Source: Halanaerobium sp. MA284_MarDTE_T2 (GTDB lineage: Bacteria; Bacillota; Halanaerobiia; Halanaerobiales; Halanaerobiaceae). Taken from it: a stretch of DNA of 51,364 nt. A model generated the notes under the pieces. The model saw nothing but the letters and a program-made list of their open reading frames with translations. It ran no database searches and had not been told where the DNA came from. Position numbers and translations under genes: made by a program. Where the stretch lies: the NCBI RefSeq assembly GCF_003337245.1, contig NZ_QPJE01000016.1:1-51364 (forward strand). The letters run 5' to 3'. Positions 1 to 18,234 of the stretch are shown one piece after another (the stretch's first letter is position 1; every line of letters begins with the position of its first letter).

Positions 1-163
1 GTTTTAAATGCTTTTATTGTTGTGTTTAGAAGACTTATTTTAGTATTTGAAACATGTAAATTGGAAAATATTATATGCTTTTTGTGTTACAATCAACATA
101 TTAGTTTAATAAATTTAATTAATATTGCTTTTTTAACAAATTTTATAAAATCTAAATATTTAA

Positions 164-985
164 TTATTCCGACAAAATTTCTTTAAACAATCCTTTAATA
201 CCCGGTGCTAATTTTCCCATTAAAAGTTCCATATTTTCGGAAGATATAACTTCAGGATTATATTCACCGGCAGTATCTGTTATCACAGAAACAGCAAGAA
301 CATCCAGCCTGCTCTGCACCGCAGCAATTATTTCCGGAACAGTTGACATTCCAACACAGTCTCCACCTATCCTGCGCATATACTCTGCTTCTGCTGAACT
401 TTCAATTTCCGGGCCACAGATAGCTGTGTATATACCTTCATGAATATTAAGACCATACTTTTCTCCCAAACTGATAATTTTCTGCCGCTCTTCCTCCTTA
501 TTATAATAGGCTTTTTCCAACAGCGGGAAGCGTATTTCATCTTCTAAAGCTGGTCCTCTTAAAGGGCTTGTTCCCTGCAGGTTAATATGATTTTTAACCA
601 CCATAAGATCTCCTCTGTGATAGTCTTCATTAAGTGCTCCTGCTGCATTTGTCAAATAAATCTTTTTTACTTTAAGATATTTAAACACTCGTATCGGAAA
701 AACAACTTCTTCCATACTGTACCCCTCATAATAATGGTATCTTCCCCCTGTAATAATAGTATTTTCCCCATTAATCTTCCCAAAAATAAGGCTGCCTTTA
801 TGTCCTGGGGCAGTAAGAGGTGGGAAATAAGGAATTTCTGTAAAGGACAGTTCAATTTCCTTATTCAGTATATCCTTTAAAAAAGAAAGACCACTTCCGG
901 CAACTACTGCCGTATTTAATTTATTATAACCGGTTCTTTCTTTAATATAATATGCTGCTTTTTTAGCTTTTTCCAGATAATTCAT
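164..985 (-). CDS. punA: Purine nucleoside phosphorylase (trimeric PNP/MTAP family), last gene of the pdu operon
   Basis: Phosphorolyses purine nucleosides to base plus (deoxy)ribose-1-phosphate in the cytoplasm. The 273-residue length fits the trimeric family. Seen: the phosphate loop region around GSGLS (30-34), YYEGYS (85-90), LTNAAGALN (111-119), a Glu at 195 in the position of human Glu201, and GMSTVPE (212-218). The residue matching human Asn243 is Asp237 (context SVITDTAG). In human PNP an Asn-to-Asp change there opens the enzyme to adenosine, so 6-aminopurine nucleosides are a plausible substrate (inference). Its ATG overlaps the pduV TGA (ATGA at 982-985), so the two genes are probably translationally coupled. 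PNP is not a standard Pdu component. The family call is firm; the substrate is not. Confidence 0.9.
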   Translation of the reverse strand: MNYLEKAKKAAYYIKERTGYNKLNTAVVAGSGLSFLKDILNKEIELSFTEIPYFPPLTAPGHKGSLIFGKINGENTIITGGRYHYYEGYSMEEVVFPIRVFKYLKVKKIYLTNAAGALNEDYHRGDLMVVKNHINLQGTSPLRGPALEDEIRFPLLEKAYYNKEEERQKIISLGEKYGLNIHEGIYTAICGPEIESSAEAEYMRRIGGDCVGMSTVPEIIAAVQSRLDVLAVSVITDTAGEYNPEVISSENMELLMGKLAPGIKGLFKEILSE

Positions 986-1440
986 TCGTCTGTCCTCCCA
1001 ACTTCACTATTGAACTTTATAAATTCAGATAATTTTTTTAAACCTGTACCTTCTAGAGCACTTGTAAGAAATATTTTCTCTGCTCCAGCCATTTCCAAAA
1101 TTGATCTTGCATATTCAATATCTGCATCTTCTGCATCTATTTTTGTAATAATACCTACCACAGGTCTCGCAAAAACAGAAGCAAAGCCTGGTGGCAAAAA
1201 ATTTTGTTCTGCCGTGGCATCTGCAACAAGACCTATTATTTCAGCTTCCTGTGCAGCTGAAATTAAGGCTGTGTAATAATGCTTGTTCTCTATATATTCT
1301 CCAGGAGTATCAATAGCTTTATCATTAAACTCAAGACTTTGTGTTCTGTAATCTATATTTTTAAATTCTCCATTCTCCAGAACTTTTATAAGTGTTGTTT
1401 TTCCTGCTCTACTGGCCCCTATAAGAATTATTTTTACCAT
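982..1440 (-). CDS. pduV: PduV/EutP family small GTPase
   Basis: A 152-residue Ras-like GTPase of the PduV/EutP family, which is linked to microcompartment positioning or other ancillary roles; the exact role is unsettled. Seen: a P-loop GASRAGKTT at residues 8-16, a DTPGE G3 motif near 44-48 and a TKID G4 motif near 98-101. It starts two bases after the pduU stop and overlaps the downstream nucleoside phosphorylase by four bases, so it sits in the middle of a coupled operon tail. The length is normal for the family. Confidence 0.9.
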   Translation of the reverse strand: MVKIILIGASRAGKTTLIKVLENGEFKNIDYRTQSLEFNDKAIDTPGEYIENKHYYTALISAAQEAEIIGLVADATAEQNFLPPGFASVFARPVVGIITKIDAEDADIEYARSILEMAGAEKIFLTSALEGTGLKKLSEFIKFNSEVGRTDE

Positions 1441-1441
1441 A

Positions 1442-1792
1442 TCAGGACCTCGTAATATCTGTTATATCAAAATCCAAAACATGTTCTAATAAGTTAAGAA
1501 TATTTTTTAAAGCTGATTCAACACTGGACACCTTACCACTTATAACAAGAGAACCACTAAATCTGTCAATAAAACCAATTTCAATATTTGCTGCTTTACT
1601 TGCTGCATCTGCAGCAATAATTGCGGCTTCACTGGGAGTAATAGTTAAAATTCCTAATGCTTCGTGTTCCTGGTTTAAACCAATTTTTTTGTAGATATCT
1701 TTGGATGGATGGGCAATTAGATGTACCAGAGTAACCTGTTTACCAGGTACATATTCCTGTATCATCCGCTGTTTTTCTTTTTCTGCTGCCAT
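1442..1792 (-). CDS. pduU: BMC shell protein PduU/EutS
   Basis: A 116-residue hexameric shell protein with a circularly permuted BMC fold. Seen: the family N-terminus [20 protein letters not shown], which forms the beta-barrel plug above the hexamer pore, then [20 protein letters not shown] and a C-terminal strand ending DITDITRS. It closely resembles PduU as I remember it from enteric bacteria. It lies between the acyl kinase and pduV, as in many pdu operons. Nothing looks broken. Confidence 0.95.
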
Positions 1793-1875
1793 TTTCTCTC
1801 ACCCCAGTTGCTTTTTAATTCTTTTTTAATTACCTGCAAGTATATCCTCCAGTACTGATTTAATGTGATTTTCTA

Positions 1876-3060
1876 TTATTTTTTTGTTTCTCTAGCTATA
1901 ACCAGCTCTTCATTTGTTGGAATAACATATACTTTAACTGCTGATTCTTCTTTACTTATTTTTATTTCCTCACCCCGACATTTATTTTTTTCTTTATCAA
2001 GACAGATACCAAAATACTCCATGTCAGATAATATTATTTCTCTTACCTCCACAGCATTTTCTCCTATACCGGCTGTAAATACTATTATATCAACTCCACC
2101 CATCACTGCTGTATAAGATCCTATATATTTTTTTACTCGACGGCAGAAAATTTCAAGGGCCAGCTCGGATTTGCGGCTGCCTGCTTCTGCTGCTTCAGAT
2201 AAATCTCTAAAATCATTGCTGACTCCAGAAATTCCTAGTACTCCACTTTCTTTATTAAGAACTTCATCAACATCTTCGATGGACAAATTTCTTTCTTTCA
2301 TAATATAAGGTATTATACCGGGATCAATATCTCCAGATCTGGTTCCCATTACAAGTCCTTCCAGTGGAGTAAGACCCATACTGGTATCAACCACTCTGCC
2401 TTTATCAATCGCTGCTATACTGGCACCATTACCCAGATGACATGTTATTATTTTTAGATCTTCATAATTTCTTCCATCCAATTCTGATGCTCTCTCAGAT
2501 ACAAATTTATGTGATGTTCCATGAAAACCATACCTTCTTACCCCATTTTCTTTGTACCAGGAATAAGGTACTGCATAAAGAAATGCTTGTTCAGGCATAG
2601 AGTAATGAAATGCTGTATCAAAAACACCAACATTGGGAGTATCTGGCATCAGCTTCTGACTTACTTCAATACCAATTAAATTAGCCGGATTATGCAGTGG
2701 AGCCAGTTTGATATTTTCCCTCAGTGCTTCAGATACTGCATCATTTATCAGCACAGAACCTGAAAATTTTTCTCCTCCGTGCACAACGCGGTGGCCGACA
2801 GCACTAATTTCATCCATATTTTTAATAACTCCAATTTTTTCATCCTGAAGTACATCTAAAACCATTTTAATAGCTTTATTGTGAGCAGCTATTTTTTCCG
2901 AAATCTTTATTTCTTCTTTATTTAAAGCTTTATGTTTTAAAACTGAACTTTTTTCTCCAATTTTTTCCACAAGTCCTTTTGCCAGAACTGTTTCACCTTC
3001 CATATTTATTAATTGATATTTTAATGAAGAACTGCCACAGTTAAGCACAAATACTTTCAT
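1876..3060 (-). CDS. ackA: Acetate/propionate kinase (PduW position)
   Basis: Converts acyl-phosphate plus ADP to acid plus ATP, the energy-yielding end of the oxidative branch. The 394-residue length is normal. Seen: the ASKHA N-terminus FVLNCGSSSLKYQL, HRVVHGGE near 88, the adenosine loop GTRSGDIDPG near 240-249 and FTAGIGENA near 329-337. It follows pduQ by about 77 bases and precedes pduU, the place of PduW, so propionyl-phosphate is the likely in-operon substrate. Sequence alone cannot separate an acetate from a propionate kinase. No phosphotransacylase is encoded nearby to supply its substrate. Confidence 0.93.
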   Translation of the reverse strand: MKVFVLNCGSSSLKYQLINMEGETVLAKGLVEKIGEKSSVLKHKALNKEEIKISEKIAAHNKAIKMVLDVLQDEKIGVIKNMDEISAVGHRVVHGGEKFSGSVLINDAVSEALRENIKLAPLHNPANLIGIEVSQKLMPDTPNVGVFDTAFHYSMPEQAFLYAVPYSWYKENGVRRYGFHGTSHKFVSERASELDGRNYEDLKIITCHLGNGASIAAIDKGRVVDTSMGLTPLEGLVMGTRSGDIDPGIIPYIMKERNLSIEDVDEVLNKESGVLGISGVSNDFRDLSEAAEAGSRKSELALEIFCRRVKKYIGSYTAVMGGVDIIVFTAGIGENAVEVREIILSDMEYFGICLDKEKNKCRGEEIKISKEESAVKVYVIPTNEELVIARETKK

Positions 3061-3137
3061 AATATTACCATCCTCTGCTGAAATATATTTATCTATTATC
3101 TCCTTGAATTCATAATTTTATCCGTAAAAATTCTTCA

Positions 3138-4265
3138 TCAGTAAACATCTTTAAGAATCTTTATAATATCTTCTCTTTTTACAGGCCTTGGATTACTTCT
3201 GAGCATAAGAACTTCTTCAAGAGCTAAATCTGCAACTTCTTCAAAACTGTCAACACCAAACTCTTTTAAACCTGTTGGCAGTCCAATATCTGCAGTGAGC
3301 CTCTTGACTTCATCTGCAGCTCTTCTAGCTGCTTCCATTTCAGTCATATTCGAAATATTAACGCCCAGCAAACGAGCAACATTAGCAAATTTAGTCGGGT
3401 TGGTAATTATATTAAATTTCATAACATGTGGAAGCAGTATAGTATTTGCAAGCCCATGAGGAATTTTGAATCTTCCTCCAAGCGGATGGGCAATAGCATG
3501 TACCAGACCCAGACCACAGTTGCTTAGAGCAATTCCTCCAAAAAGACTGGCAAGAGACATCCCTTCTCTTGCTTTCATATTATTTCCATTACCTACTGCT
3601 GGACGCAGATAATTTTTTACCATTTCTACTCCTTTAGTTGCTATCATTTCAAAAGGCAGTACTGCATCCTGTGATACATAGGACTCTATACAGTGGCTTA
3701 AAGCATCCATTCCACTAATTGCAGTCAAATATGGTGGAAGTGTTCTGGTAAGCTCTGGATCAACCACTGTTATATCCGGTATTAGACTTTCATCTACAGC
3801 GGAAAACTTATTTTTTGTTTTTTCATCTTTAATCACTACTGCTTTTGTTACCTCACTGCCAGAACCAGAGGTGGTGGGAACTGTAATTAAAGGTATCCTA
3901 CTGCACTTTTCATTCAGTTCTTTCTGCTGACAGACAGCTCTAACTGCCTTTGCAGAGTCAATAGGACTTCCCCCACCTACCGCAAGCAGTGCATCTGCAG
4001 TGTTTTCTATTGCAAATTTAACACCCTGATCTATAATATCTATAGTAGGATCTGGTTTAACCTTGTCAAAAACAACATAATTAACTTTACCATCCAGCTC
4101 TGCTGTTATCATATCCAAAATACCAGCTTTTTTTATACCTTCATCTACAACAATCATCAAAGTTCTGCATTCCAGATCGGCAGCTGTTTGAGGCAAAACC
4201 TTTCTCTTCCCAGATCCGAACTTTATTTTTGTCTTTATCTGGAACTCAAAATTAAAAGAATTCAT
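3138..4265 (-). CDS. pduQ: Iron-containing 1-propanol dehydrogenase PduQ
   Basis: A group III Fe-dependent alcohol dehydrogenase, 375 residues, that reduces propionaldehyde to 1-propanol and regenerates NAD+ inside the microcompartment. Seen: the NAD-binding GGGSPIDSAKA near 98-108, PTTSGSGSEVT near 129-139, and the metal-binding His residues in SHCIESYVS, LGLVHAIAHPLGG and PHGLAN. It has its own SD (GAGGAG) 8-10 bases before the ATG. It lies between pduT and the acyl kinase, consistent with a dismutating pathway: one aldehyde is oxidised and one reduced. Confidence 0.93.
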   Translation of the reverse strand: MNSFNFEFQIKTKIKFGSGKRKVLPQTAADLECRTLMIVVDEGIKKAGILDMITAELDGKVNYVVFDKVKPDPTIDIIDQGVKFAIENTADALLAVGGGSPIDSAKAVRAVCQQKELNEKCSRIPLITVPTTSGSGSEVTKAVVIKDEKTKNKFSAVDESLIPDITVVDPELTRTLPPYLTAISGMDALSHCIESYVSQDAVLPFEMIATKGVEMVKNYLRPAVGNGNNMKAREGMSLASLFGGIALSNCGLGLVHAIAHPLGGRFKIPHGLANTILLPHVMKFNIITNPTKFANVARLLGVNISNMTEMEAARRAADEVKRLTADIGLPTGLKEFGVDSFEEVADLALEEVLMLRSNPRPVKREDIIKILKDVY

Positions 4266-4325
4266 CCAACCATCTCCTCTTTATAGCAACAGCAGCATAT
4301 ATTTAGATTATTTTATATCTGCAGT

Positions 4326-4874
4326 TTAAAGCAGTGTTTTAAATACATCCTTATCAGGAGAAGAAATAAATACTTTATTATAGAGCATACCATTGTCCTT
4401 GCCGGCAGCTGCTCCTGCATTAAGAGCCTGTTTTACTGCACTGACATCTCCCGTAAATGTCACATATGCCTTTCCTCCCAAACCCGTACCCAATCTAACC
4501 TGTATAAGATCAACCTGAGCTGCTTTGGCAGCTGCATCTGCACCAATTATAGCACTTGCTATACTGAAATATTCCAGCACACCAACTGCATTAACTTTTT
4601 CTATCTCTGTAGTTGCATTAATTGCATTTAAAAGCTGATTGTGTATTCTTGAGATAACAAGATGGTCTACTACAAATGGATCACCTTTTTCTATTCCTGA
4701 TTTTACAGAAGATTTAACTGCACTTACATCTCCAGAAATTAAAATAGTATATTTACCCGGACAGGTTGGCTGTGCCAAAATCAGATCTACATCTGCTGCT
4801 TTTTTCATTATATCTGCTACTTTTATACCCTGGCTGATTGAGTTAAACTCAAGTAAGCCTATTGTAGTAATCAT
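4326..4874 (-). CDS. pduT: Tandem-BMC shell protein PduT, without the usual cluster cysteine
   Basis: A 182-residue protein with two BMC domains (about 1-90 and 94-182) that forms trimeric pseudohexamers. PduT from enterics carries a [4Fe-4S] cluster at the trimer pore, held by a Cys in a GGKCY context. Here that stretch reads GLGGKAYVTF with Ala136, and the only cysteine in the protein is Cys38 in TCPGK. The electron-conducting pore role may therefore be lost or altered. Its ATG overlaps the pduS stop (ATGA), so it is coupled to the flavoprotein-type reductase it is thought to partner. The family call is secure; the redox role is doubtful. Confidence 0.93.
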   Translation of the reverse strand: MITTIGLLEFNSISQGIKVADIMKKAADVDLILAQPTCPGKYTILISGDVSAVKSSVKSGIEKGDPFVVDHLVISRIHNQLLNAINATTEIEKVNAVGVLEYFSIASAIIGADAAAKAAQVDLIQVRLGTGLGGKAYVTFTGDVSAVKQALNAGAAAGKDNGMLYNKVFISSPDKDVFKTLL

Positions 4875-6208
4875 AATTCCACCTCAGAACTTTTACTTAT
4901 TACTATTTCTTTCTCGTCCACCTTAATAATTTTCCCCTCTAAACTGGCATGTATATTGGCACTAAGGCTGTCTTCTTTAGCTTTTCCAACAAGATCTCCT
5001 TTTTTGATCTGCTGACCTATTTCTACCACAGGATATGCAGGTACACCAATATGCTGGCTCATAGGAATTTTAACCTCTTTTATTTCAATTTTTTCTGTTT
5101 CCGCAAGAGACTGATGATAATATTTACTCAGGTTAAGCCTGGAAATTTGGCGATCTGTTGGTATTCGTCTGTATTTTTTCATTGGATGAGCACTGTATTC
5201 TTCCTGTTTACTCTTATACTTGTCTTTTACCTTTTCTTTAAAATATACATTGATAAGCCTCGGTGATAATCCCATCGGGCAGGCATAAAGCTCACATACT
5301 CCACACTCACAGCATAGCTGTGCCATCTTGAAAATTTCTTCATCTTCTGAATAGGCCAGTGCTCTCATTATTCTGTGCGGCTCCATATCATGTCCTATTA
5401 AATACCTGGGACAAAAATCAGTACACATGCGGCACTGTATACAGGCTGCCTTAGACTGGTTTTTCATATGTTCCATGCTCTGCTGATTTCTCTCTATCAC
5501 ATAATGGTTCCTGGGAAGTACAATAAGAGCTCCATCTGTTTTTTTAATAACAGCACTATTTATCTCTTCATCTGTCACATAGTGAGTCCCCATCATTGGT
5601 CCACCAATTATTACTGCATAATCATCCACTGATGCACCACCTGCTGCTTTTATACAGTCATTAATAGGAGTACCAATGGGTACATTAATTATTTTGGGAT
5701 CATTTACTTCTCCCAACATAGAAACATATTTATCTGTCACTGGTTTTCCCTGTAGAGCAAAATAACTATTTACAAGAGTTCCAACATTTGTAACTACTAC
5801 TCCAACCTGAAGAGGTATACCACCTTCAGGAACCGTACGTCCTGTTATGTCATAAACCATAATCTGCTCATCACCTGCAGGATAAAAACTGTCCATCAGA
5901 AATAAATCTATTTTATATTCCTCATCCTCTATTATTTTCTCCAGACAGGCTCTTTCATTTTCATATTTTTTCTTAAGAGCAAAAACTGTTTTTTCAACAC
6001 CTATTTGCTCTGCTATTTTATTTGCTGCTGAAATCATCTCTGCTGAATAGGTTCTCATGAGATATTTATCTGTCATCAAAAGTGGCTCACATTCTGCTCC
6101 ATTGATAATCAGATATTCTGCTTCACAGTCATATTTAACATGAGTAGGAAAACCGGCTCCTCCAGCTCCTACTACCCCTGCTTCAAATATTTTTTTTATA
6201 AGGCTCAT
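4871..6208 (-). CDS. pduS: PduS, RnfC-like flavin/Fe-S cobalamin reductase
   Basis: Reported to reduce cobalamin for the adenosyltransferase PduO and to pass electrons at the shell. Seen: an Rnf-like N-terminal NADH/FMN motif VVGAGGAGFPTHVK (about 12-25), a SLBB-like middle, two ferredoxin-like motifs (CIQCRMCTDFCP, and CCECGVCELYACP) near 255-310, and a C-terminal biotinyl-like segment containing IKKGDLVGKA. The start at 6208 is chosen because AGAGGGG lies about 7 bases upstream; an in-frame start six codons earlier lacks a good SD. 445 residues is normal. It is coupled to pduT. Confidence 0.93.
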   Translation of the reverse strand: MSLIKKIFEAGVVGAGGAGFPTHVKYDCEAEYLIINGAECEPLLMTDKYLMRTYSAEMISAANKIAEQIGVEKTVFALKKKYENERACLEKIIEDEEYKIDLFLMDSFYPAGDEQIMVYDITGRTVPEGGIPLQVGVVVTNVGTLVNSYFALQGKPVTDKYVSMLGEVNDPKIINVPIGTPINDCIKAAGGASVDDYAVIIGGPMMGTHYVTDEEINSAVIKKTDGALIVLPRNHYVIERNQQSMEHMKNQSKAACIQCRMCTDFCPRYLIGHDMEPHRIMRALAYSEDEEIFKMAQLCCECGVCELYACPMGLSPRLINVYFKEKVKDKYKSKQEEYSAHPMKKYRRIPTDRQISRLNLSKYYHQSLAETEKIEIKEVKIPMSQHIGVPAYPVVEIGQQIKKGDLVGKAKEDSLSANIHASLEGKIIKVDEKEIVISKSSEVEL

Positions 6209-6241
6209 AAAAATACCCCTCTCCATTTAGAAACCACTTTT

Positions 6242-7660
6242 TTATATAATGGAGAATCCATCTACTAATACACATCTTCTCTTTCTGGTGAATGTTCTGG
6301 CAGAAGTTAATCCTTCACCAGTAGGACCAGCTATTGTAAAAGTTGTATGTCCCTCTCCTCCAGCACCGATACCTGCATAAGAAGGTGCATTTTTGACATA
6401 AATAGTAGTTTCAATTTTCTTGGCAAATGCTGTTAAATTATCTACATTTTTAGAATGAATTACTGCTGTATGTCTGTTCCCGTGTTCAACCTGAACTCCA
6501 ATTTCCATTGCTTCTTCAAAGTTTTTGGCTCTAACAAGAGGGATAACAGGCATCAGCTGTTCTTCCTGTACAAATGGATGGTCAAGTTCTACATCTACAA
6601 TTACAAGCCTCAAGTCCTCACATTTTGGTTTAATTCCTGCTTTGCGAAGGATATATGCAGCATTTTTACCAACAAGATCTTTGTTAATGGAACCATCATC
6701 ATTAAGAATAATTTTTTCCAGTGAAACTGTATCATCTATAAGCTGAGCATTATCATCGATCATGTGTTTTATTAATTCGTCTGCAACACTGTCCAGAGCA
6801 ACAATTACTTTTTCCGATGTACATGGTAAATTATTATCAAAACTTGCACCTTTAATAATATCTGATGCAGCTCTTTTTAAATCTACTGTATCATCAACCA
6901 ACACCGGGGGATTACCTGCTCCAGCACCAATAGCTTTTTTGCCTGAAGAAAGTGCTGCTTTTACCACACCTGGACCACCTGTAGCAACAATCATAGATAT
7001 TCTGTCATCAGCCATACAGCTTTCAACTGTTTGAATTGTAGGTTCAGCAACTGCTGTAAGTAGATTTGCAGGACCACCTGCTTCTATTATTGACTGATTT
7101 AAAACTTTAATTACATATGTTGAAGTTTTCTTTGCTCTGGGATGACCATTAAAAACTACTGTATTGCAGGCTGCTATCATTCCGATTGAATTGCAGATAA
7201 TAGTTTCTGATGGATTGGTTACAGGCGTTATTGCACAGATCACTCCAAAAGGTGCTTCCTCCAGAATTGTAAGACCTTTTTTCCCACTCTTAGCCTCAGT
7301 TCTAAGATCTTCGGTTCCAGGAGTTTTATTTATAGCTAAATTATTTTTTATAATTTTATCTTCTATTCTTCCCATACCACTTTCTTCATATGCCATCCGT
7401 GATATTTTATCAACATGCATACTTATTTCATTTCTCATGGCCTTTATTAGCTCTTCTCTTTCTTCTATAGAATAATCATTCTGAAGTATATTTTGAGCTT
7501 TACATGCTGCATCAATTGCCTCATCCATGGTAGGGAAAATGCCTAAATCTCCTTTAGAACTATTTTCAGTTTTATTATCTTTTATTTCAGTTTTTTCTTC
7601 CTCTATTTCTTTTAGTATCTGTTCTACTATTTTATTAATATCCTGATTTTTAATATCCAA
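6242..7660 (-). CDS. pduP: CoA-acylating propionaldehyde dehydrogenase PduP
   Basis: Oxidises propionaldehyde plus CoA to propionyl-CoA with NAD+ inside the shell. A TTG start at 7660 is favoured: AAGGAGGAG precedes it by a few bases, whereas the longer frame (to 7765) overlaps glcG by 80 bases. The N-terminus from that TTG, DIKNQDINKIVEQILKEI, has the amphipathic pattern of an encapsulation peptide, followed by a charged linker of about 25 residues. Seen in the aldehyde dehydrogenase core: EEAPFGVICAITPVTNPSET, the Rossmann-region GPGVVKAALSSGKKAIGAG, and the catalytic Cys in NNLPCTSEK. It is about 472 residues from this start. Confidence 0.93.
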   Translation of the reverse strand: MDIKNQDINKIVEQILKEIEEEKTEIKDNKTENSSKGDLGIFPTMDEAIDAACKAQNILQNDYSIEEREELIKAMRNEISMHVDKISRMAYEESGMGRIEDKIIKNNLAINKTPGTEDLRTEAKSGKKGLTILEEAPFGVICAITPVTNPSETIICNSIGMIAACNTVVFNGHPRAKKTSTYVIKVLNQSIIEAGGPANLLTAVAEPTIQTVESCMADDRISMIVATGGPGVVKAALSSGKKAIGAGAGNPPVLVDDTVDLKRAASDIIKGASFDNNLPCTSEKVIVALDSVADELIKHMIDDNAQLIDDTVSLEKIILNDDGSINKDLVGKNAAYILRKAGIKPKCEDLRLVIVDVELDHPFVQEEQLMPVIPLVRAKNFEEAMEIGVQVEHGNRHTAVIHSKNVDNLTAFAKKIETTIYVKNAPSYAGIGAGGEGHTTFTIAGPTGEGLTSARTFTRKRRCVLVDGFSII

Positions 7661-7685
7661 TCTTTCTCCTCCTTCCCTGTTTAAA

Positions 7686-8102
7686 CTAACTGCTCGTATA
7701 TCTATTGACAAAAAATTCTGCTCCCGATTCAGCAATTTCAATATCTTCATCCACAGTACCACCACTTACACCAACTGCTCCAACAACTTCCCCCTGACTT
7801 TTGAGCGGTATGCCGCCTCCAAAAAGGACTATATTTTCACAGGAAGTATCAATACCATAAAGCATATTGCCAGGACTCGAAATTTCTCCAAGTTCCTGAG
7901 TAGTCATCCGCAGAGCATAAGCAGTATAAGCCTTTGCAGGTGCCAGTTCAATACTTATGGGCAGGGCATTATCCATTTTTTTAAAAGTTATCAGTTTTCC
8001 ATCATCTCCAACCACAGAGATAACAGCCGCTAAATTCATTTTTTCTGCCTTTTTCTGGCACTGTTCTGCAATTTTTTCTGCTATATTAAGAGATATTTTC
8101 AT
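7686..8102 (-). CDS. GlcG/HbpS-like (DUF336) protein, PduO C-terminal-domain homologue
   Basis: A 138-residue DUF336 protein. In enteric PduO this domain is fused to the C-terminus of the adenosyltransferase and can bind haem; here it is a separate gene directly after the adenosyltransferase, three bases from its stop. Seen: the family motif block ALRMTTQELGE, a GGGIPLKSQGEVVGAVGVSGG loop region (about 94-114) and a C-terminal DEDIEIAESGAEFF. Probable role: accessory to cobalamin handling in the microcompartment (inference from its fusion partner elsewhere). Confidence 0.88.
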   Translation of the reverse strand: MKISLNIAEKIAEQCQKKAEKMNLAAVISVVGDDGKLITFKKMDNALPISIELAPAKAYTAYALRMTTQELGEISSPGNMLYGIDTSCENIVLFGGGIPLKSQGEVVGAVGVSGGTVDEDIEIAESGAEFFVNRYTSS

Positions 8103-8104
8103 AA

Positions 8105-8668
8105 CTAACTCTCCTCATTATTCAGAACCTGACAAACCTTCTCAGTAATTAAATCTATTAAATACCTTCTATCTGCAGTTCTGCTCAAAATATAAATGAG
8201 GTCAGACAGCCGATTAATATAACTATGGAGTATTTCCGAAAATTCTATATCTTTCTCTTCCTCAGCAGCTATAGTTCTTCTTTCAGCTCTCCTGCAGATT
8301 GTTCTGCAGATATCAAGCAGGCTGCCCACTTCACTTTCACCAGGTACTATAAATCCTGACAGATTAAAATCAGACTGATAAGAGTCTAGCTCAGCCTCCA
8401 GAAAAGCAAGGTGCTCTTGTTTTAATTTATCTTTGGGTTCTCGCCCTAAAGATGCAAGTTCTGCAGCAACTATAAATAAATCCTTCTGTACTTTAAAAAT
8501 TATTTGTTTAATATCAGCATCCTCACACTTTACCCGGGCCAGCCCCAACCAGGAGTTAAGCTCATCAATAACACCATATGCTTCAACCTGTGGGTCTGAT
8601 TTTGTGATTCTTTCACCACTCAGGAGGCTTGTATTTCCTCTATCCCCCCTTTTTGTCGCAATAGACAT
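8105..8668 (-). CDS. pduO: PduO-type ATP:cob(I)alamin adenosyltransferase
   Basis: Makes adenosylcobalamin, the cofactor of the diol dehydratase, from ATP and cob(I)alamin. Seen: N-terminal ATP-binding TKRGDRGNTSLLSGERI, the conserved VEAYGVIDELNSWLG, and C-terminal CRTICRRAERRT and SYINRLSDLIYILSR. The start at 8668 is chosen because GGAGGGGG lies about 8 bases upstream and the protein then opens MSIATKRGDRG as in the family; a longer frame runs 17 codons into pduN. 187 residues corresponds to the stand-alone N-terminal domain of enteric PduO. Confidence 0.93.
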   Translation of the reverse strand: MSIATKRGDRGNTSLLSGERITKSDPQVEAYGVIDELNSWLGLARVKCEDADIKQIIFKVQKDLFIVAAELASLGREPKDKLKQEHLAFLEAELDSYQSDFNLSGFIVPGESEVGSLLDICRTICRRAERRTIAAEEEKDIEFSEILHSYINRLSDLIYILSRTADRRYLIDLITEKVCQVLNNEES

Positions 8669-8669
8669 A

Positions 8670-8960
8670 TTAATAACCCCCTCCTGAAAAGCTTGACTCA
8701 TCAAGTTCAATTTCATCAATAATACCTACAATAGCATGATCTATTGGACTCCCTTTAAACTGATCAGTCTGACGTGCAGCACTACCTTTTGTGACAAGAA
8801 CTCTTTCACCAATTCCAGCACCTACACTGTCAACTGCAACCAGACATTTTTCTTTTCTAAATTCACCATATAAAGGGTGTACTAAAAGCAGTTTTGTTCC
8901 AACTAGATCTTTATCTTTCTGTGTAGCCACCACATTACCCACTACTCTGGCTGTAAACAT
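8670..8960 (-). CDS. pduN: BMC vertex protein PduN (EutN/CcmL family)
   Basis: A 96-residue pentameric vertex protein that caps the twelve corners of the icosahedral shell. Seen: the canonical opening ARVVGNVVATQKDKDLVGTK, LLLVHP, VAVDSVGAGIGERVLVTKGSAAR and a C-terminal HAIVGIIDEIEL. The ATG lies 19 bases inside the upstream flavoprotein/PduM gene, and its stop abuts the SD of pduO, so three genes are tightly packed. Confidence 0.95.
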   Translation of the reverse strand: MFTARVVGNVVATQKDKDLVGTKLLLVHPLYGEFRKEKCLVAVDSVGAGIGERVLVTKGSAARQTDQFKGSPIDHAIVGIIDEIELDESSFSGGGY

Positions 8961-9844
8961 AATATCATCCCTTTGTTTTCTGCCACTTCTCTGGCATATG
9001 GAGTAATTACTGCATCTTCCCTGACATATATTTTCTTAATAGTATCCCGAATAGGATTAATATCCTTATAGGTAATCACTTTTTTATTTAATACTACAGA
9101 AGTTCCCGTCCCAGCTTCTGCTGAGTTTTCTTTAGATAAATTGCTGTCATTAAATTCAGCTTTATTTTGAATTTTTGCTGTATCTGATTTAGAAAATATT
9201 ACTGATTCTCCATCAAAATTAAACTCTACATCGCTATTTAATTCATTTTTTAAGATACTGTCAGCTTCTTTATAAAGATCAGCAGCATCAACAATTTTAA
9301 TACCAAAACTTTTTACTCTTTTCAGCTGTTTTTGATTATATTCCAGTAAAGCTGTCGGAGTTTTATTCATCCCCAATTCTCTCCAGCCTTTTGCAGAAAT
9401 ATCAGCTGCATTTTTTACAGCTGCTACAGGTATACCGCACATAACAGCTCTAAAAATATAATCGATCAGCTGTGAATCTACAAAATGTGCTGATAATTTA
9501 GCCACTGTATTTCTGGTCATTACAGGAATTAATACAAGATCAGCATCATTGATACATTCAAAATCAGCTTCATAATTATCCCAATCAACATTAAGAGCTG
9601 ACAGTATTTCGCTTTTATCCAGCATCTTTTCTGCTGCAGTAGAAAAGAGAAAACTCCAATTAATATCATAAGTGCTGTCAATTTTTTTTAGCTGATCTAA
9701 ACTTTTTTGATAAGCAATTTTGCCTCCGGTAAAAACAGCTGTTATATTTTTCTTTTCCTTGTTTAGTTTGAAAGAATCTGTCATCAGAGTATTCAGTACT
9801 TCTCTGATAATTTTTTCTATCAGTTCTCTGTTCACTTCAACCAT
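8942..9844 (-). CDS. Flavoprotein-fold protein with PduM-like C-terminus and N-terminal encapsulation-like peptide
   Basis: A 300-residue protein in the place pduL/pduM usually hold. Seen: residues 1-20 (NRELIEKIIREVLNTLM) form an encapsulation-peptide-like amphipathic helix. About 30-190 look like the flavoprotein (Dfp/UbiX-type) fold: ITAVFTGGK, then DADLVLIPVMTRNTVAKL and FRAVMCGIPVAAVKNAAD. A charged linker of about 70 residues follows, then a C-terminal domain with ITYKDI and AVITPYAREVAENKG. That tail resembles the C-terminus of enteric PduM as I remember it. PduM is needed for normal shell formation in Salmonella. Flavin binding is inferred, not shown. It starts 20 bases after eutJ with SD GGAGG. 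Confidence 0.75.
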   Translation of the reverse strand: MVEVNRELIEKIIREVLNTLMTDSFKLNKEKKNITAVFTGGKIAYQKSLDQLKKIDSTYDINWSFLFSTAAEKMLDKSEILSALNVDWDNYEADFECINDADLVLIPVMTRNTVAKLSAHFVDSQLIDYIFRAVMCGIPVAAVKNAADISAKGWRELGMNKTPTALLEYNQKQLKRVKSFGIKIVDAADLYKEADSILKNELNSDVEFNFDGESVIFSKSDTAKIQNKAEFNDSNLSKENSAEAGTGTSVVLNKKVITYKDINPIRDTIKKIYVREDAVITPYAREVAENKGMILCLQPE

Positions 9845-9864
9845 CTTTTTACCTCCATCCTCAA

Positions 9865-10692
9865 CTATTCACAGTTAATGGCAATACCGAGGGGAGTTAC
9901 CAGTAAAGTCTGAGAGGGTTTTACAATCTTTAAACCTGTTTTTTTTGCAAGCACCTCTTCTATACCATCTATGGCACTTGTACCGCCAACTAAATAGACT
10001 GTTTCAGCTTTATATTTTCCAATATGATTATTAATAATAGAAGCAATTTTCTCTATTACAGGAATAACCATTGGAAATATTTCGTCTATCCTATCAGGAT
10101 CTCTTTTTATTTTTTCGGCTTTTTCTATACTAATTCCCAATCCACCTGCAATTACAAGGTTTAAATGTGTTCCACCTGTGGCTTCATCAGCAGTATAAAC
10201 TACTTTACCATCTTCCAATATGGAAATCCCTGTTGTTCCACCACCAATATCCACTACAACACCTCGCTCAATACCCAGCAGCGTTGCTGCTGCAGAAGGT
10301 TCATCCACAACATTTTTTACAGTGAATCCTGCTCCCTGTACAACATTTTTAAAGGTATCAATATCTCTACCACCAGTACCTGGCGGTACAGCAGTTGCTG
10401 CATATTTGATTTCTCTGTTAAAAATAGCTTCCATTTTTATTTTCATTTTTTTTACTATTTTCAGAGCACCAATATAATCTACAACAAGACCATCTCTTAC
10501 AACTGTTCCAGGTTCACAGAGTGCCAACAGAGGTTTATTATCTTTATCAACTGCTGCAAGAACCAGATTGGCAGTTCCAAGATCTACACCTGCCTTAATT
10601 TCACCTTGATAATCAATTTTTTGTGGTGGATTATCAATTAATTCTGCTACTTCATTTAAGACTATATTGGCGTTAGCAACAAATTTATTCAT
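9865..10692 (-). CDS. eutJ: EutJ-like actin/Hsp70-fold ATPase
   Basis: A 275-residue ASKHA-fold protein of the EutJ family, thought to be a chaperone or reactivation helper in microcompartment loci; its substrate is unknown. Seen: phosphate-1 motif GVDLGTANLVLAAVD (about 31-45), VVDEPSAAA, phosphate-2 VVDIGGGTTGISIL (about 145-158) and the adenosine motif VYLVGGTSAIDGI. It opens with SD AAGGAG and follows a 136-base gap with a hairpin after pduJ. EutJ is typical of ethanolamine loci but also occurs in several Firmicute pdu loci. Confidence 0.88.
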   Translation of the reverse strand: MNKFVANANIVLNEVAELIDNPPQKIDYQGEIKAGVDLGTANLVLAAVDKDNKPLLALCEPGTVVRDGLVVDYIGALKIVKKMKIKMEAIFNREIKYAATAVPPGTGGRDIDTFKNVVQGAGFTVKNVVDEPSAAATLLGIERGVVVDIGGGTTGISILEDGKVVYTADEATGGTHLNLVIAGGLGISIEKAEKIKRDPDRIDEIFPMVIPVIEKIASIINNHIGKYKAETVYLVGGTSAIDGIEEVLAKKTGLKIVKPSQTLLVTPLGIAINCE

Positions 10693-10785
10693 TAATATTA
10701 TTCTCCTTCATCAGACAGCAGATCATTTTTTGATTTTTATAATTATCATAAATTACATATTTTATTTGATAAGTAATAAATAAAT

Positions 10786-10814
10786 TCCCCCTCCCACCTC
10801 AAAGAAGAGGGGGA
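10786..10814 (-). terminator. Hairpin between pduJ and eutJ (attenuator or processing site)
   Basis: On the transcribed strand TCCCCCTC pairs with GAGGGGGA (8 bp, G:C rich) with a 13-base loop, followed by AATTTATTTATT rather than a pure U-run. It probably terminates part of transcription or protects the 3' end of the dehydratase/shell message, so that genes from eutJ on are made in smaller amounts. No separate promoter is obvious after it. Confidence 0.6.
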
Positions 10815-10828
10815 TTGATCATCACAAT

Positions 10829-11137
10829 TTACTCCATTTCCGGCATATCTAGTTTTTCAGCCACCATTTTAGGTAAAATTGTTTCAACATCTTTATGAGG
10901 TCTTGGAATAACATGTACAGAAATAAGTTCTCCAACTCTTCCGGCTGCTGCAGCTCCTGCATCAGTCGCTGCCTTAGTTGCTCCAACATCTCCTCTAACC
11001 AGTACTGTTATTAATCCTGAACCGATTTTTTCATAACCAACCAGAGATACATTAGCTGCTTTAACCATTGCATCTGCTGCTTCTATTGCTCCAATAAATC
11101 CTTTAGTTTCTATTAATCCTAAAGCTTCACCGTTCAC
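10829..11137 (-). CDS. pduJ: BMC shell hexamer protein PduJ
   Basis: A 102-residue single-domain BMC protein, one of the main facet hexamers. Seen: the BMC core [40 protein letters not shown] and SVHVIPRPH. It is nearly the same as PduA (18235-18507) across the core but has a longer C-terminal tail, [18 protein letters not shown] start is used, with GGGGG eight bases upstream. It is the last gene before the hairpin at 10786-10814. Confidence 0.95.
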
Positions 11138-11156
11138 GTTTCATTCCCCCTTTTCC

Positions 11157-11804
11157 TTAATTATCATCATTTATTATTTCATCATAGTGAATACAGTTCT
11201 TTCTCAGATCACCTTTTCTGCGCGGACAGGCTGGATCTCCACAAATATTGCAGATATCTTCTTCATCTTTATTATCTGATTCCACTTCTTCAACTTCATC
11301 TACTTTTTTAGCATCTTTTTCTGTATTTAAATCTTCATCATCTGTCTGTTTCTCACTCTCTTTTTCTGCATCATCTAAATCTTCATTATCTGATTCATCA
11401 TCTTCCTTATTTTCAGCGCTGCTGTCTTCAGATATTTTAGAATCACCTTCAGTTTCTTTAGGGGTTTGTTCCTGTTTAAACGAATTATCTTCAGAAATCT
11501 CGCCCTTTTCTTTTTTATAACCCACAGTTTCATCTGTACGAATCATATTATCAATATCCTTATGTGGTCTGGGAATAACATGAGCACCAACAACTTTGCT
11601 CAGTTTTGATGCTGCCTGTTTAGCTGCGTCTACAGCAGCTTTAACAGCACCAACATCACCAGTGAATTTGACAACAATCAAACCTCCACGGCTTATTTCA
11701 TAACCAATCAAATCAATATTAGCAGCTTTTTTAGCCACATCTGCAGCTTCAAACGCTGCATTTAAACCCAGAGTCTCTACCATACCAAGTGCAGTTTTTG
11801 CCAT
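11157..11804 (-). CDS. pduK: BMC shell protein PduK with long acidic linker and Cys-rich tail
   Basis: Residues 1-90 are a normal BMC domain (TALGMVETLGLNAAFEAADV, GDVGAVKAAVDAAK, AHVIPRPH). Residues about 95-185 are low-complexity, dominated by Glu, Asp, Ser and Lys. The C-terminus has CNICGDPACPRRKGD followed by CIHYDE, the Cys motif of PduK family tails that is suspected to bind metal or an Fe-S cluster. At 215 residues it is longer than enteric PduK (about 160 as I recall); the linker accounts for the difference. The upstream neighbour pduH carries a similar acidic stretch. Confidence 0.92.
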   Translation of the reverse strand: MAKTALGMVETLGLNAAFEAADVAKKAANIDLIGYEISRGGLIVVKFTGDVGAVKAAVDAAKQAASKLSKVVGAHVIPRPHKDIDNMIRTDETVGYKKEKGEISEDNSFKQEQTPKETEGDSKISEDSSAENKEDDESDNEDLDDAEKESEKQTDDEDLNTEKDAKKVDEVEEVESDNKDEEDICNICGDPACPRRKGDLRKNCIHYDEIINDDN

Positions 11805-11837
11805 ATTCCCTCCTCCCTAACTTCTCTGTTCCATTAA

Positions 11838-12569
11838 TTAGTTATTTAATTTTTTAACCACATCCACAATTAAATCTGTCAGCAGATTAAGCTGTTTTTC
11901 AGATATACTATCTTCACTGTCCAAATTGATCTCACTAAAATCTTCAGAGTTATCTTTTTCCTCGTCAATTTTAGAATCACTATTTTTTTCATTATTTTTA
12001 GAACTATTCTTTTCTTCACTAATTTTTGTATTTATTTCTTGATCTTTATTTTCAGAAGAACTGCTGCTTTTAGAAGATAAAACAAGATCACTCAAACTGT
12101 ATTTATTGACTTGATCTGCATTTAAATCTGTTTCTGAATGCTTAAATTCTAATTTATCTTTTTCACTAAATTTAATATCCGGAGCAGAGCCTGTTGTAAA
12201 TTCATCTTTTAAGGGAATTTCTTTTACCGGAATACCTTTTACAAGTCTGGCAGCATTAGAGCCAATAATCTTTGCCTGAAAATTATAATCAATTTTTTTC
12301 TTGAAAAAAGGATTTTCCAGATCCAGTTTTTTATGCTGAAGCACAATATTATTATCAGCTCCTATACCAACACCGATATTAAGTCTTGATCTCTGTGCTG
12401 CTTCATGGGCCAGTATTTCTGGATTTTTCTCTTCACTTGCAAAATAATAGAAGGGAATGCCTTCTTCCTCAAGTCCATAGCAGACATTTTTAAAAATATC
12501 ACTACCTGCGATTTCCGCATCAAATCCTATATATACAGAAGGTTTTTTAGACTGCTCTTTACTACTCAT
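11838..12569 (-). CDS. pduH: Diol dehydratase reactivase small subunit PduH, with long linker and C-terminal amphipathic helix
   Basis: Residues 1-115 match the reactivase small subunit: VYIGFDAEIAGSDIFKNVCY, EEGIPFYYF, AQRSRLNIGVGIGADNNIVL and AARLVKGIPVKE. PduH swaps with PduD to eject damaged cobalamin. Enteric PduH is about 116 residues; this one is 243. The extra part is a Ser/Glu/Asp/Asn/Lys-rich linker (about 116-222) ending in ISEKQLNLLTDLIVDVVKKL, which has the hydrophobic pattern of an encapsulation peptide but at the C-terminus. It overlaps the pduG end by 8 bases. The core call is firm; the targeting role of the tail is inference. Confidence 0.88.
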   Translation of the reverse strand: MSSKEQSKKPSVYIGFDAEIAGSDIFKNVCYGLEEEGIPFYYFASEEKNPEILAHEAAQRSRLNIGVGIGADNNIVLQHKKLDLENPFFKKKIDYNFQAKIIGSNAARLVKGIPVKEIPLKDEFTTGSAPDIKFSEKDKLEFKHSETDLNADQVNKYSLSDLVLSSKSSSSSENKDQEINTKISEEKNSSKNNEKNSDSKIDEEKDNSEDFSEINLDSEDSISEKQLNLLTDLIVDVVKKLNN

Positions 12570-14397
12570 CTAAAACACTTCCCTCCTCGTCTAGATAAGA
12601 CAGCACAAGACCTGTTGCTACAGCATTGCGGGGGCCCATTAGTCCTCTAATATTTCCACGCCCTGCCACTACTCCATATTCCGAAAGACGGTTGGAAATC
12701 ATTGTTGGAATTTCAAAATCAATTGCCGATCCGCCAACCATTACTACAAAATCGATATCTCTTATATTTCCTGTTGGTATAATTCTTTTTAATGCCCTCT
12801 CTGAGTTGCGTACAAAAACATCATGTTTTGCTTCTCTTCTTACCTGACGAATTTTATCCAGCGAATGATCTGTATGAATCGGCACCATTTCATCATCAGA
12901 AAGAATTACTACTCTCCCAAATAATTTTGGCGGTAATGGTTCATCAAAAAAATTAACTGTCCCATCTTCATGCCTTATATGGAACATACTCTCCACTTTA
13001 GCAAGTGGAAATATTTTGATCATCTCTGCCAGCTTAACATCTGATAGACCCAGTTCGATATTAATCAAAAGTGAAACCATATCACCCGCACCTGCAAGAT
13101 GTGTTGTATATACCATATCTTTCCGTGTAACCATTGCAGCATCTGTGGAGCCGCCGCCCATATCCAGGATTACAAAAGGTTTGTCTGTACCTGGAGTTGT
13201 AAGGGCTCCTAGAATCGCCATATTGGCTTCAATACCTGCAATAGTTACTTCAATATCTGTTTTTTCTTTTAATTTATCAGCAATTTTCTGCATGGGAAGC
13301 TGGCTTGTTTTAACCATTGCTGCCAGTCCTACAGCATTTTCCATTGCATGCTCTTCTGCTAGTCCTCCTCTCACTTCTTTTGGGACAAAGGTATTTACTG
13401 CAAGTATATCCTTTATTTTAATTTCTGCAAGAGGCTGATCTGTAACTTTACTCATAGTTTCTTTTACTCGATCGAGCATACCACCGACATTTGTTCCCGC
13501 TTCACCTTTAACATCTTTTATTGGCTGAATTTTTTCTATCGAATCCATGATCTCTTCTGCACCTGCATCTATTCCTATTTCAGATTTTCCCCTGTCACCA
13601 AATATAACAAGATTTCCAGCAGGTATTTTACGCTCTTCTACATCACCTTCCGGTGTTCTTATTACAACTGCAGATCTATTCCCAATTAAAGATCTAGCCA
13701 CAGGAAAAATATGCTTTGTTTCTTCAGAGTCAAGCTCAAAGATTGTAGCTATGCCGTAGGGGTTGGAAAGTTTATCGATTGTACCACCAGGGCTGGCCAC
13801 TTCTACAGCAGCTTTTTTGCCAAGTGGTATTTTATCGATATATTTAACTTCATCAATAACCGGAATTATTTTATTGAGGCGGTTTACTATAAGTACTGCA
13901 TCATCTTTTTGTGCCACTGCACCATTAATATTGATCCCCTGTTCTGCTGCCTGATTGATAATATCTGCTGCTCTGGCAAAATCAACTTCTCCTGGTATGA
14001 TAAGTATAATATCATCACCAGGACGGCAGTCTTCAACATTTTCTACCCTGGTTGTTATCCCAACACCCAAGCCGACTCCACCAGGTGTCCAGGGGTCATG
14101 ACCTATCATGGTAGATTCTGTAATAACAGTTTCAGTTATTGTTTCCATTGCTACATCACCAATAACTGGTGTAGCTTCGTTTATCCTGATTAAATCAATA
14201 TCCTGGTAACTTAAATCGATTTTTTCTAATGCCCTATTTAAAGATTCCAGAATACCTTCAATATTATCTATTGTACCTTTTAATCCAGTGGTCTTATATA
14301 TACCATCTGATATAAACTCTATATTTTTATTTTCTACTCTGCCGACTGCAACTTCCGTAGTGGAGTTGCCGATATCGACCCCTACAATATATTCCAT
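12562..14397 (-). CDS. pduG: Diol dehydratase reactivase large subunit PduG
   Basis: The ATP-dependent large subunit of the factor that removes inactivated cobalamin from diol dehydratase. The 611-residue length from the chosen start is normal. Seen: the ASKHA phosphate-1 motif VGVDIGNSTTEVAVG at the N-terminus, a swiveling domain near 90-250, phosphate-2 VILDMGGGSTDAAMV near 413-427 and the C-terminal VVMVGGSAIDFEIP. The ATG at 14397 is preferred because GGTGGGTGGG precedes it; the GTG four codons upstream sits inside that SD. It lies between pduE and pduH and overlaps pduH. Confidence 0.95.
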   Translation of the reverse strand: MEYIVGVDIGNSTTEVAVGRVENKNIEFISDGIYKTTGLKGTIDNIEGILESLNRALEKIDLSYQDIDLIRINEATPVIGDVAMETITETVITESTMIGHDPWTPGGVGLGVGITTRVENVEDCRPGDDIILIIPGEVDFARAADIINQAAEQGININGAVAQKDDAVLIVNRLNKIIPVIDEVKYIDKIPLGKKAAVEVASPGGTIDKLSNPYGIATIFELDSEETKHIFPVARSLIGNRSAVVIRTPEGDVEERKIPAGNLVIFGDRGKSEIGIDAGAEEIMDSIEKIQPIKDVKGEAGTNVGGMLDRVKETMSKVTDQPLAEIKIKDILAVNTFVPKEVRGGLAEEHAMENAVGLAAMVKTSQLPMQKIADKLKEKTDIEVTIAGIEANMAILGALTTPGTDKPFVILDMGGGSTDAAMVTRKDMVYTTHLAGAGDMVSLLINIELGLSDVKLAEMIKIFPLAKVESMFHIRHEDGTVNFFDEPLPPKLFGRVVILSDDEMVPIHTDHSLDKIRQVRREAKHDVFVRNSERALKRIIPTGNIRDIDFVVMVGGSAIDFEIPTMISNRLSEYGVVAGRGNIRGLMGPRNAVATGLVLSYLDEEGSVLDE

Positions 14398-14418
14398 AAT
14401 CCCACCCACCTGTTAGCT

Positions 14419-14934
14419 TTATCTGTCACCTTTAAGTCTTTTTCTCTTTTCGTAAACATCTGCAGCTTCACGAATTAAGTTAGCATTAATAATTGCATCA
14501 TATTTGTTTTCAAGTTCATCTGCTATGTCCAGTAATTCTTTCTTTGTGGAACGATATGGACGCATGGCATTGTATATTTCAAGGATTCTATCATCTTCTA
14601 CTTTAGTTAATTCAGCAGCTCTTTCTAGGTTTTTAGCAAACTGCTCTCTGCCAACAGATTTCGCAATTTCTGCCTGATGATATAGTGTTTCTGCAGTGAT
14701 TCTTAACTCTGCACCATCTATTTCGCCAGAAAGAATTTTTTTAAGCTGAATATCGTCCAGGGTTTTCCCTGAAGGAGTTTTTACAAGGTCAGCTCTTTTT
14801 TCTGCAAGTGGGTAATCTTTATCTGAAAGACCATTACTGCTTTTATTTACTGCTGTGGTTTTACTTTCACCTTCAGCTTTTTCCAGATTACCAAGAACAT
14901 TACGCACAATAGATTCTACTAAATCTCTATCCAT
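14419..14934 (-). CDS. pduE: Diol dehydratase small subunit PduE
   Basis: The gamma subunit of adenosylcobalamin-dependent diol dehydratase. Residues 1-18 (MDRDLVESIVRNVLGNL) form an encapsulation-peptide-like helix, then a linker of about 30 residues, then the conserved core SGKTLDDIQLKKILSG, DGAELRITAETL, LERAAELTKV and MRPYRSTKKELLDIA. The ATG at 14934 is chosen over the GTG at 14943 because the SD AGGAGG runs directly into the GTG but sits 10 bases from the ATG. 171 residues is typical. Confidence 0.95.
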   Translation of the reverse strand: MDRDLVESIVRNVLGNLEKAEGESKTTAVNKSSNGLSDKDYPLAEKRADLVKTPSGKTLDDIQLKKILSGEIDGAELRITAETLYHQAEIAKSVGREQFAKNLERAAELTKVEDDRILEIYNAMRPYRSTKKELLDIADELENKYDAIINANLIREAADVYEKRKRLKGDR

Positions 14935-14961
14935 TAAATCCACCTCCTGATAATTAAATAA

Positions 14962-15618
14962 TTATTCAAATTTCACTTCAAGTTTAACAACCTTTTTCTG
15001 TGGATCAAGGTATTTAACTTCTTTATTATACAAAACAGCAGCTATTGCCTGATATTTAGGTCTTGCCATCTGATCATTACGGGTTGGAACAGGATCAGGA
15101 TTTTCTCCTTTTGCATATCTGGCAGCATTTTTTCCTATCTGACGATAAGTTTTTAAATCAAGCAGTGGTGCCTGTGGAAAAAGTTCCAAATTAGCAAGTG
15201 GATTTAGATCTTTCTGATGAATTAAAACCGTACCTTTTGACTGTAATCCAATTCCAATACCAGAACCACTTAACTGAGCTGCCTGATGACCAACAAAACC
15301 TACATCAGCGGTAGAATAATTTTTTACAACCCGTGCTTTTAATCCCTCTTCTTCAATACCAGCCATGATCTCACGCAAAATATTGCTGTGTTTTTCATCG
15401 ATCATAGTTTTTGTCAGTTTATCTCCGAATGCTGGTGCAACTCCAATAACAACTTCATCATTACTGCGACCTTCTTTAGCAGGACCAACTTCTTTTAAGA
15501 TCATATCACCTTTTCTTTCAGCAACGGCTGTATTAGAAGATGAGTTTTCTCCTTCTTCTGACATACCGGATAAAACATCAACCACAATTTTGCGAATTGC
15601 ATCTTCATTTAACTGCAT
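14962..15618 (-). CDS. pduD: Diol dehydratase medium subunit PduD
   Basis: The beta subunit of diol dehydratase, which helps hold the cobalamin. Residues 1-19 ([19 protein letters not shown]) are a clear encapsulation-peptide-like helix of the PduD type, followed by a Ser/Glu/Gly linker. The core has [53 protein letters not shown] and [26 protein letters not shown] lies 5 bases before the ATG. 218 residues is normal. Confidence 0.96.
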
Positions 15619-15642
15619 TATTACACCTCCCGAATATTGAGA

Positions 15643-17313: not shown

Positions 17314-17331
17314 ATTTTTCCCTCCTTAAAT

Positions 17332-17369
17332 TCATTTTACTATACAACAATCATTTTACTATACAACAA
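17332..17369. repeat. Perfect 19-bp tandem duplication between pduB and pduC
   Basis: The unit TCATTTTACTATACAACAA occurs at 17332-17350 and again, without a mismatch, at 17351-17369, immediately upstream of the pduC SD. It may be a recent replication-slippage duplication or part of an mRNA element. I see no terminator in it. Confidence 0.95.
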
Positions 17370-17385
17370 CATCTATTATTATATT

Positions 17386-18210: not shown

Positions 18211-18234
18211 ATTTTTTCACCCTCCTCTCCATTA

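Follow-up and report, generated by a model that had tools for sequence, protein, structure and literature searches.

A purine nucleoside phosphorylase gene overlapping pduV in a Halanaerobium pdu operon: a candidate for the salvage of adenosylcobalamin-derived 5'-deoxyadenosine

Why does an operon for a B12-dependent microcompartment end in a gene of nucleoside metabolism? The question is raised by a contig of Halanaerobium sp. MA284_MarDTE_T2 (NZ_QPJE01000016.1, here C16; genome of 2.47 Mb in 69 contigs), whose entire 51,364 nucleotides were analysed and are called the window in the following. An ORF of 273 amino acids on the minus strand (164..985) encodes a trimeric-type purine nucleoside phosphorylase (PNP), and its start codon ATG (985-983) shares the bases ATGA with the TGA stop of a eutP/pduV gene (982..1440, minus strand; TIGR02528 with 153.3 bits against a cut-off of 138.35, and a PF10662 match). 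The motif GGGAGGA is found 7 bases 5' of this ATG. The PNP gene is the last of 22 genes on the same strand (18516 to 164), whose spacing varies between -80 and +136 bp. Both the coupling to pduV by ATGA and the reading from one long pdu operon, proposed in an earlier note on this DNA, are thus borne out by the coordinates.

The operon, all of it on the minus strand, begins with genes for PduB-like and PduA-like shell proteins (17386..18516), which are named by resemblance and are matched in relatives from the same bacterial order. These are followed by the three subunits of an adenosylcobalamin-dependent diol dehydratase (PduCDE, 14419..17313; PF02286, PF02287, PF02288) and by the large (PduG-like, 12562..14409) and small (PduH-like, 11838..12569) subunits of a diol dehydratase reactivase (11838..14409 with PF08841, PF18427 and PF02288). 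Towards the PNP are encoded an EutN/PduN vertex protein (8670..8960, PF03319), a PduO-like cobalamin adenosyltransferase, which makes adenosylcobalamin (8105..8719, PF01923), a PduP-like aldehyde dehydrogenase (6242..7765, PF00171), a PduS-like flavoprotein (4871..6226) and a PduT-like shell protein (4326..4874), a PduQ-like iron alcohol dehydrogenase (3138..4265, PF00465/PF25137), a PduW-like acetate kinase (1876..3060, PF00871) and the shell protein PduU/EutS (1442..1792; NF012012 with 127.3 against 123 bits, PF00936). No pduL was found in the pdu operon of the window (1..23000). Upstream of the operon are genes for a response regulator and a sensor kinase that contains a PocR-like region. 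Two other products have unusual features: a PduK-like shell protein (11157..11804) combines a long acidic region with a tail rich in Cys (CNICGDPACPRRKGD), and a 300-aa protein (8942..9844) without any NCBIfam or Pfam match, which keeps the same position in relatives, has an N-terminal start resembling an encapsulation helix. When a diol dehydratase is inactivated, its adenosylcobalamin is cleaved irreversibly, leaving 5'-deoxyadenosine (5'-dAdo); inactivation of PduCDE would be the source of this compound here.

On the other side of the PNP, the contig ends after 163 bp. Comparison of the contig's ends with those of the genome's other contigs revealed an IS-like, multi-copy repeat end (1..95, unstranded), which lies 68 bp beyond the PNP stop, is common to 7 other contig ends and coincides with the contig break; the matching ends diverge after ACAATCA. 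The right end (51242..51364) is a multi-copy repeat as well, which we take to resemble an IS200/IS605 end. It is shared by 14 contig ends and the left one by 8, C16 being counted in both cases.

The PNP scores 263.9 bits with the general PNP model NF006054 (cut-off 218 bits, E 1.7e-78). More specific models were not reached, namely those of inosine/guanosine-specific PNP (TIGR01700, 232.8 against 293.35 bits; Asp, not Asn, is present at the 243 column), xanthosine phosphorylase (150.4 against 370.9 bits) and MTA phosphorylase (TIGR01694, 60.5 against 274.85 bits). An AlphaFold2 model based on 18 sequences has a mean pLDDT of 83.7 and matches PNPs best (4m1e with Z 35.2, rmsd 1.9 and 267 aligned; 8swt with 34.5; 6tk9 with 34.4). 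The PNP was aligned with 145 others (146 rows), a biased set, many members of which come from one scan with the PNP's own peptides (80 loci, mainly Bacteroidota). In this alignment, the catalytic columns of the phosphate, ribose and base sites are kept (S31, R82, H84, Y86, E195, M213, S214); their equivalents in human PNP are presumably S33, R84, H86, Y88, E201, M219 and S220.

The earlier note had placed Asp237 where Asn243 sits in human PNP, and this holds in the MAFFT alignment as well as in two profile alignments built without the PNP. Profiles of Asp-type (90) and Asn-type (55) sequences both match Asp237 and Ser249 to columns 243 and 257 with no gap between, the Asp-type profile scoring slightly higher (276.9 vs 267.5). 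According to the available excerpts of published work, the kcat of human PNP N243D for adenosine is increased about 5,000-fold (PMC6128611), the double mutant E201Q:N243D cleaves adenosine prodrugs (PMC2799393), and PNP II of T. thermophilus acts on 6-aminopurines only (PMC11430614) and forms a hexamer of 179 kDa with about 30 kDa per subunit (PMC8073115). The Thermus PNP of structure 6tk9 (271 aa), which judging from its size is probably TthPNP II, has ITD at the base site. As far as sequence can tell, a preference of the studied PNP for 6-aminopurines is plausible. However, Asp may not exclude 6-oxopurines, since the Asp-type PNP of B. fragilis (8swt) binds Immucillin H, a hypoxanthine-like inhibitor; a literature search for the specificity of this enzyme found nothing. 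Further, Asp occupies the base-site column in 90 of the 145 other PNPs (Asn in the remaining 55), and Asp-type PNPs also occur in 8 further genomes of the order; the neighbourhoods examined in 7 of these contain, by our reading, housekeeping genes and no microcompartment gene. Asp was consequently rejected as a mark of microcompartment PNPs. Being common in housekeeping PNPs, Asp taken alone is no pointer to 5'-dAdo, so that from the earlier argument, which led from Asp to aminopurines and 5'-dAdo, the 6-amino preference is retained in the light of N243D and the second step is dropped. In the order, Asp-type PNPs of a separate clade (L005, L010, L016, L024, L034, L037, L044) lie in a rather steady neighbourhood with tryptophanyl-tRNA synthetase and a Fur-like gene, which has no tie to microcompartments.

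A new clue to a 5'-deoxy substrate is provided by Ser249, which replaces human His257, the ligand of the 5'-OH, and with which this contact would be lost. Ser at this column is found in none of the 145 other PNPs, and the same applies to Ile at the Phe200 column (Ile194; 0/145). His is present at column 257 in 51/55 Asn-type and 80/90 Asp-type sequences and absent, gaps counted, in 4/55 and 10/90. We looked upon one reading with tentative favour, a little short of calling it probable: the PNP may phosphorolyse 6-aminopurine 5'-deoxynucleosides, with 5'-dAdo derived from adenosylcobalamin as its favoured substrate.

How widely the arrangement occurs was assessed in a phylum draw of 398 genomes, 98 of which have the vertex gene PF03319 (with G060 under the cut-off) and 29 PduC (PF02286), the source genome being included in both numbers. 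In 0/97 other PF03319 genomes and 0/4 further PF02286 genomes does a PF01048 gene share a contig with a vertex or PduC gene at a distance of up to 29 kb; the distances were compared by eye from listed places (nearest: G074), and since many of these genomes are drafts, some links are concealed by breaks between contigs. A true PduV, with E below 1e-40, is encoded in 8 of the 38 genomes of the order, and none of the other 7 has the PNP beside pduV. Among the genomes sampled, the PNP adjoining a microcompartment locus is private to the source genome. An occurrence beside pduV in this strain only had been named in the earlier note as counting against its own proposal, and this is what the counts 0/97 and 0/7 give; conserved linkage, the criterion for a conserved accessory gene of Pdu loci, was not found either (0/97, 0/4).

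The private adjacency favours a general salvage phosphorylase for 6-aminopurine nucleosides (adenosine/deoxyadenosine), which would have come to lie behind pduV by rearrangement and would owe the operon its expression and not its function. Asp-type PNPs are indeed widespread away from microcompartments, and the multi-copy repeat end downstream is a sign of rearrangement. On the other hand, the ATGA overlap and the ribosome-binding site inside pduV indicate a settled arrangement, the loss of the 5'-OH ligand is unexpected in an enzyme acting on ribonucleosides, and in relatives the same slot is occupied by a kinase-like gene. We consider general salvage unlikely, though well worth keeping in mind.

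This kinase-like gene also bears on the proposed use of 5'-dAdo. The 7 other pduV genomes of the order comprise 5 B12-type pdu operons (PduC over 1000 bits) and 2 Eut loci. A methylthioribose-kinase-like gene is present in 4 of the 5 B12-type operons, all four from one genus (g2). In G011, G013 and G021 it starts about 26 bp after pduV in the same direction and is followed by pduL (TIGR01767 with 234.6, 233.9 and 243.0 bits), and in G015 it lies between the acetate kinase and a second aldehyde dehydrogenase of the pdu operon (226.4 bits); all four fall short of the 275 bits that the MTRK model requires. The four genes are found at L298:3012-4280, L300:1417-2685, L301:17525-18808 (minus) and L303:14773-16065. 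Neither kinase nor PNP was found in the pdu operon of G005, from the same order, or in the examined stretches of the Eut loci G014 and G010. The G005 operon (L305) runs into apparent cobalamin biosynthesis genes directly after pduV. A pduL gene is located near pduV in the four kinase-bearing operons and not in the window operon. In the source genome, kinase and pduL are absent from the window and from 199 kb of the remainder (about 8% of it). For pdu loci outside the order, 20 stretches of 12-20 kb around and downstream of pduC were inspected in 19 genomes (the other PduC genomes number 28) and contained neither kinase nor PNP; they had no PduU/PduV match and did not cover the slot. Also outside the order, a methylthioribose kinase follows directly after pduU-pduV2 in Acetobacterium woodii; in the part of that study available, the authors call the kinase unrelated to BMC function and the pduU-pduV2 cluster weakly expressed (PMC7593272).

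Kinase and phosphorylase may lead to the same product. In the excerpts available, 5'-dAdo is described as being converted to 5-deoxyribose-1-phosphate either by nucleosidase and kinase or by a phosphorylase alone, from which an isomerase and an aldolase produce DHAP and acetaldehyde (PMC6079011, PMC8102628); the kinase DrdK uses 5-deoxyribose and 5-methylthioribose about equally (PMC6079011). Three PF01048 genes are present in the source genome, namely a canonical PNP, which by our reading adjoins a thymidine-phosphorylase-like gene, an MTIP-like protein (245.9 vs 223 bits) and the PNP of the pdu operon; by reading, none of the three is an MTA/SAH nucleosidase. A kinase by itself would therefore lack a source of 5-deoxyribose, in keeping with its replacement by a phosphorylase. 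MtnA (452.1 against a cut-off of 279) and a class II, fuculose-phosphate-type aldolase (359 against 264) are encoded on other contigs; clustered with the PNP, neither isomerase nor class II aldolase was found in the window, where the contig ends past the PNP. A second MtnA-like isomerase of the source genome (L169:1474-2505, minus) is under the equivalog cut-off (200.8 vs 279). The genome also encodes an MTA/SAH-deaminase-like protein, which scores under its cut-offs and could, together with the MTIP-like enzyme, form a competing route for 5'-dAdo.

The same slot could serve methionine salvage if the PNP were a methylthioadenosine phosphorylase (MTA to MTR-1-P) replacing the MTR kinase of the relatives. 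MTR-kinase-like genes in 4/5 related operons, the presence of MtnA and the fact that DrdK, as described, accepts 5-methylthioribose no less readily than 5-deoxyribose (PMC6079011) agree with this. Nevertheless, we regard it as improbable, given the low MTAP model score (60.5 vs 274.85 bits), the MTIP-like enzyme elsewhere in the genome and the lack of a reason to regulate methionine salvage with propanediol.

Finally, the gene could be a decaying or non-catalytic copy at an operon end beside a mobile element. The PNP deviates at 19 of 72 columns conserved to at least 90%, the most of all 146 sequences (median 1), and its terminal branch has 3.73 changes per site against a median of 0.32; this very long branch could reflect relaxed constraint. 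In the tree, which is drawn open and leaves long branches unsure, the PNP is placed loosely beside Asp-type PNPs of Bacteroidota and Planctomycetota (89/89). Close orthologues of more than 45% identity are missing among the matches listed in the order (38 genomes), in the phylum draw (398) and on plasmids; the plasmid matches all have less than 60% identity (34 records), with the best 15 of the 34 listed at 34-45%. A scan of genome_contigs yielded 42% identity at best, using six exact 8-residue peptides, with which orthologues can be missed and IGGDCVGM sequences are enriched. However, the reading frame and the catalytic residues are intact, and the structure model is confident with PNPs as best matches (Z 35), which makes decay quite improbable. 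Least credible of all is that the PNP feeds aldehyde to the compartment by splitting 2'-deoxynucleosides for a deoxyribose-phosphate aldolase; acetaldehyde is a compartment-type substrate, but the pdu operon showed no deoC-like gene, the thymidine-phosphorylase-like gene adjoins the canonical PNP instead (by reading), and Ser249 bears on the 5' and not the 2' position.

For the PNP as a 5'-dAdo phosphorylase, we infer substrate, direction and physiological role as follows. It would be an active trimeric (NP-I) enzyme whose preference has shifted from ribonucleosides of 6-oxopurines to 5'-deoxynucleosides of 6-aminopurines; produced along with the pdu operon, it would remove the 5'-dAdo which diol dehydratase inactivation would leave from adenosylcobalamin. 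With phosphate, 5'-dAdo would be split into adenine and 5-deoxyribose-1-phosphate, which MtnA isomerase and class II aldolase of the genome could convert to DHAP and acetaldehyde by drd/DHAP-shunt chemistry, and the acetaldehyde might enter the compartment's own aldehyde enzymes. The PNP itself is probably cytosolic, as its sequence has no N-terminal extension that could serve as an encapsulation tag. This reading is favoured because the 5'-OH ligand is lost with Ser249 and because 4/5 related operons contain a kinase-like gene of possibly the same product. It is weakened because the linkage is private, Asp is common and the kinase is known from one genus and A. woodii, and also because G005 has neither gene and a second route is possible in the genome. 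Salvage of 5'-dAdo, as the earlier note proposed it, is thus supported in part: it is favoured by Ser249 and the relatives' gene and loses the support of Asp and of the private PNP linkage; what was termed a cofactor-repair role is better called salvage of a cofactor by-product.

A wider proposal, possible if rather doubtful, is that the B12-dependent pdu operons of the order carry an interchangeable kinase or phosphorylase making 5-deoxyribose-1-phosphate from cofactor-derived 5'-dAdo or its sugar, with the PNP as a dedicated 5'-dAdo phosphorylase and the acetaldehyde burned in the same microcompartment. The fate of 5'-dAdo from inactivated adenosylcobalamin enzymes is little described. If true, this would be the first dedicated salvage step for the by-product of adenosylcobalamin, salvage would be linked to B12 microcompartments by two different genes that serve one step in the same operon, and the kinase set aside in the A. 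woodii study would deserve renewed attention. Titles and beginnings of abstracts contained no link of microcompartments or propanediol to PNP, methylthioribose kinase or deoxyadenosine, and the published 5'-dAdo salvage, as far as the available excerpts go, concerns radical SAM enzymes.

Compared with known systems, the PNP shares family, fold (Z 34-35) and catalytic residues with the trimeric-type PNPs (NF006054/PRK08202; B. fragilis 8swt, T. thermophilus 6tk9, Planctomyces 4m1e), and with 8swt and 6tk9 also the Asp at the base site. It differs from them in having Ser and Ile at the columns of His257 and Phe200, respectively, in a far stronger divergence and in the pdu context. In the relatives G011, G013, G021 and G015, gene order is much like that of the window up to pduV, whereas a methylthioribose-kinase-like gene and pduL stand where the window has the PNP and the repeat end. 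In BMC cluster 2 of A. woodii, a gene of the proposed same salvage step follows pduU-pduV as it does here, but it is a kinase instead of a phosphorylase, and a link is dismissed in the accessible part of the paper (PMC7593272). As for drdKIA (PMC6079011) and the DHAP shunt (PMC10986504), the phosphorylase variants described in the excerpts are MTAP-like, while the genes of the source genome are unclustered and a B12 microcompartment takes the place of radical SAM enzymes. The proposed product, 5-deoxyribose-1-phosphate, is nevertheless the same, a phosphorylase variant of the first step has been described in these sources, and homologues of both the isomerase and the aldolase are present in the source genome.
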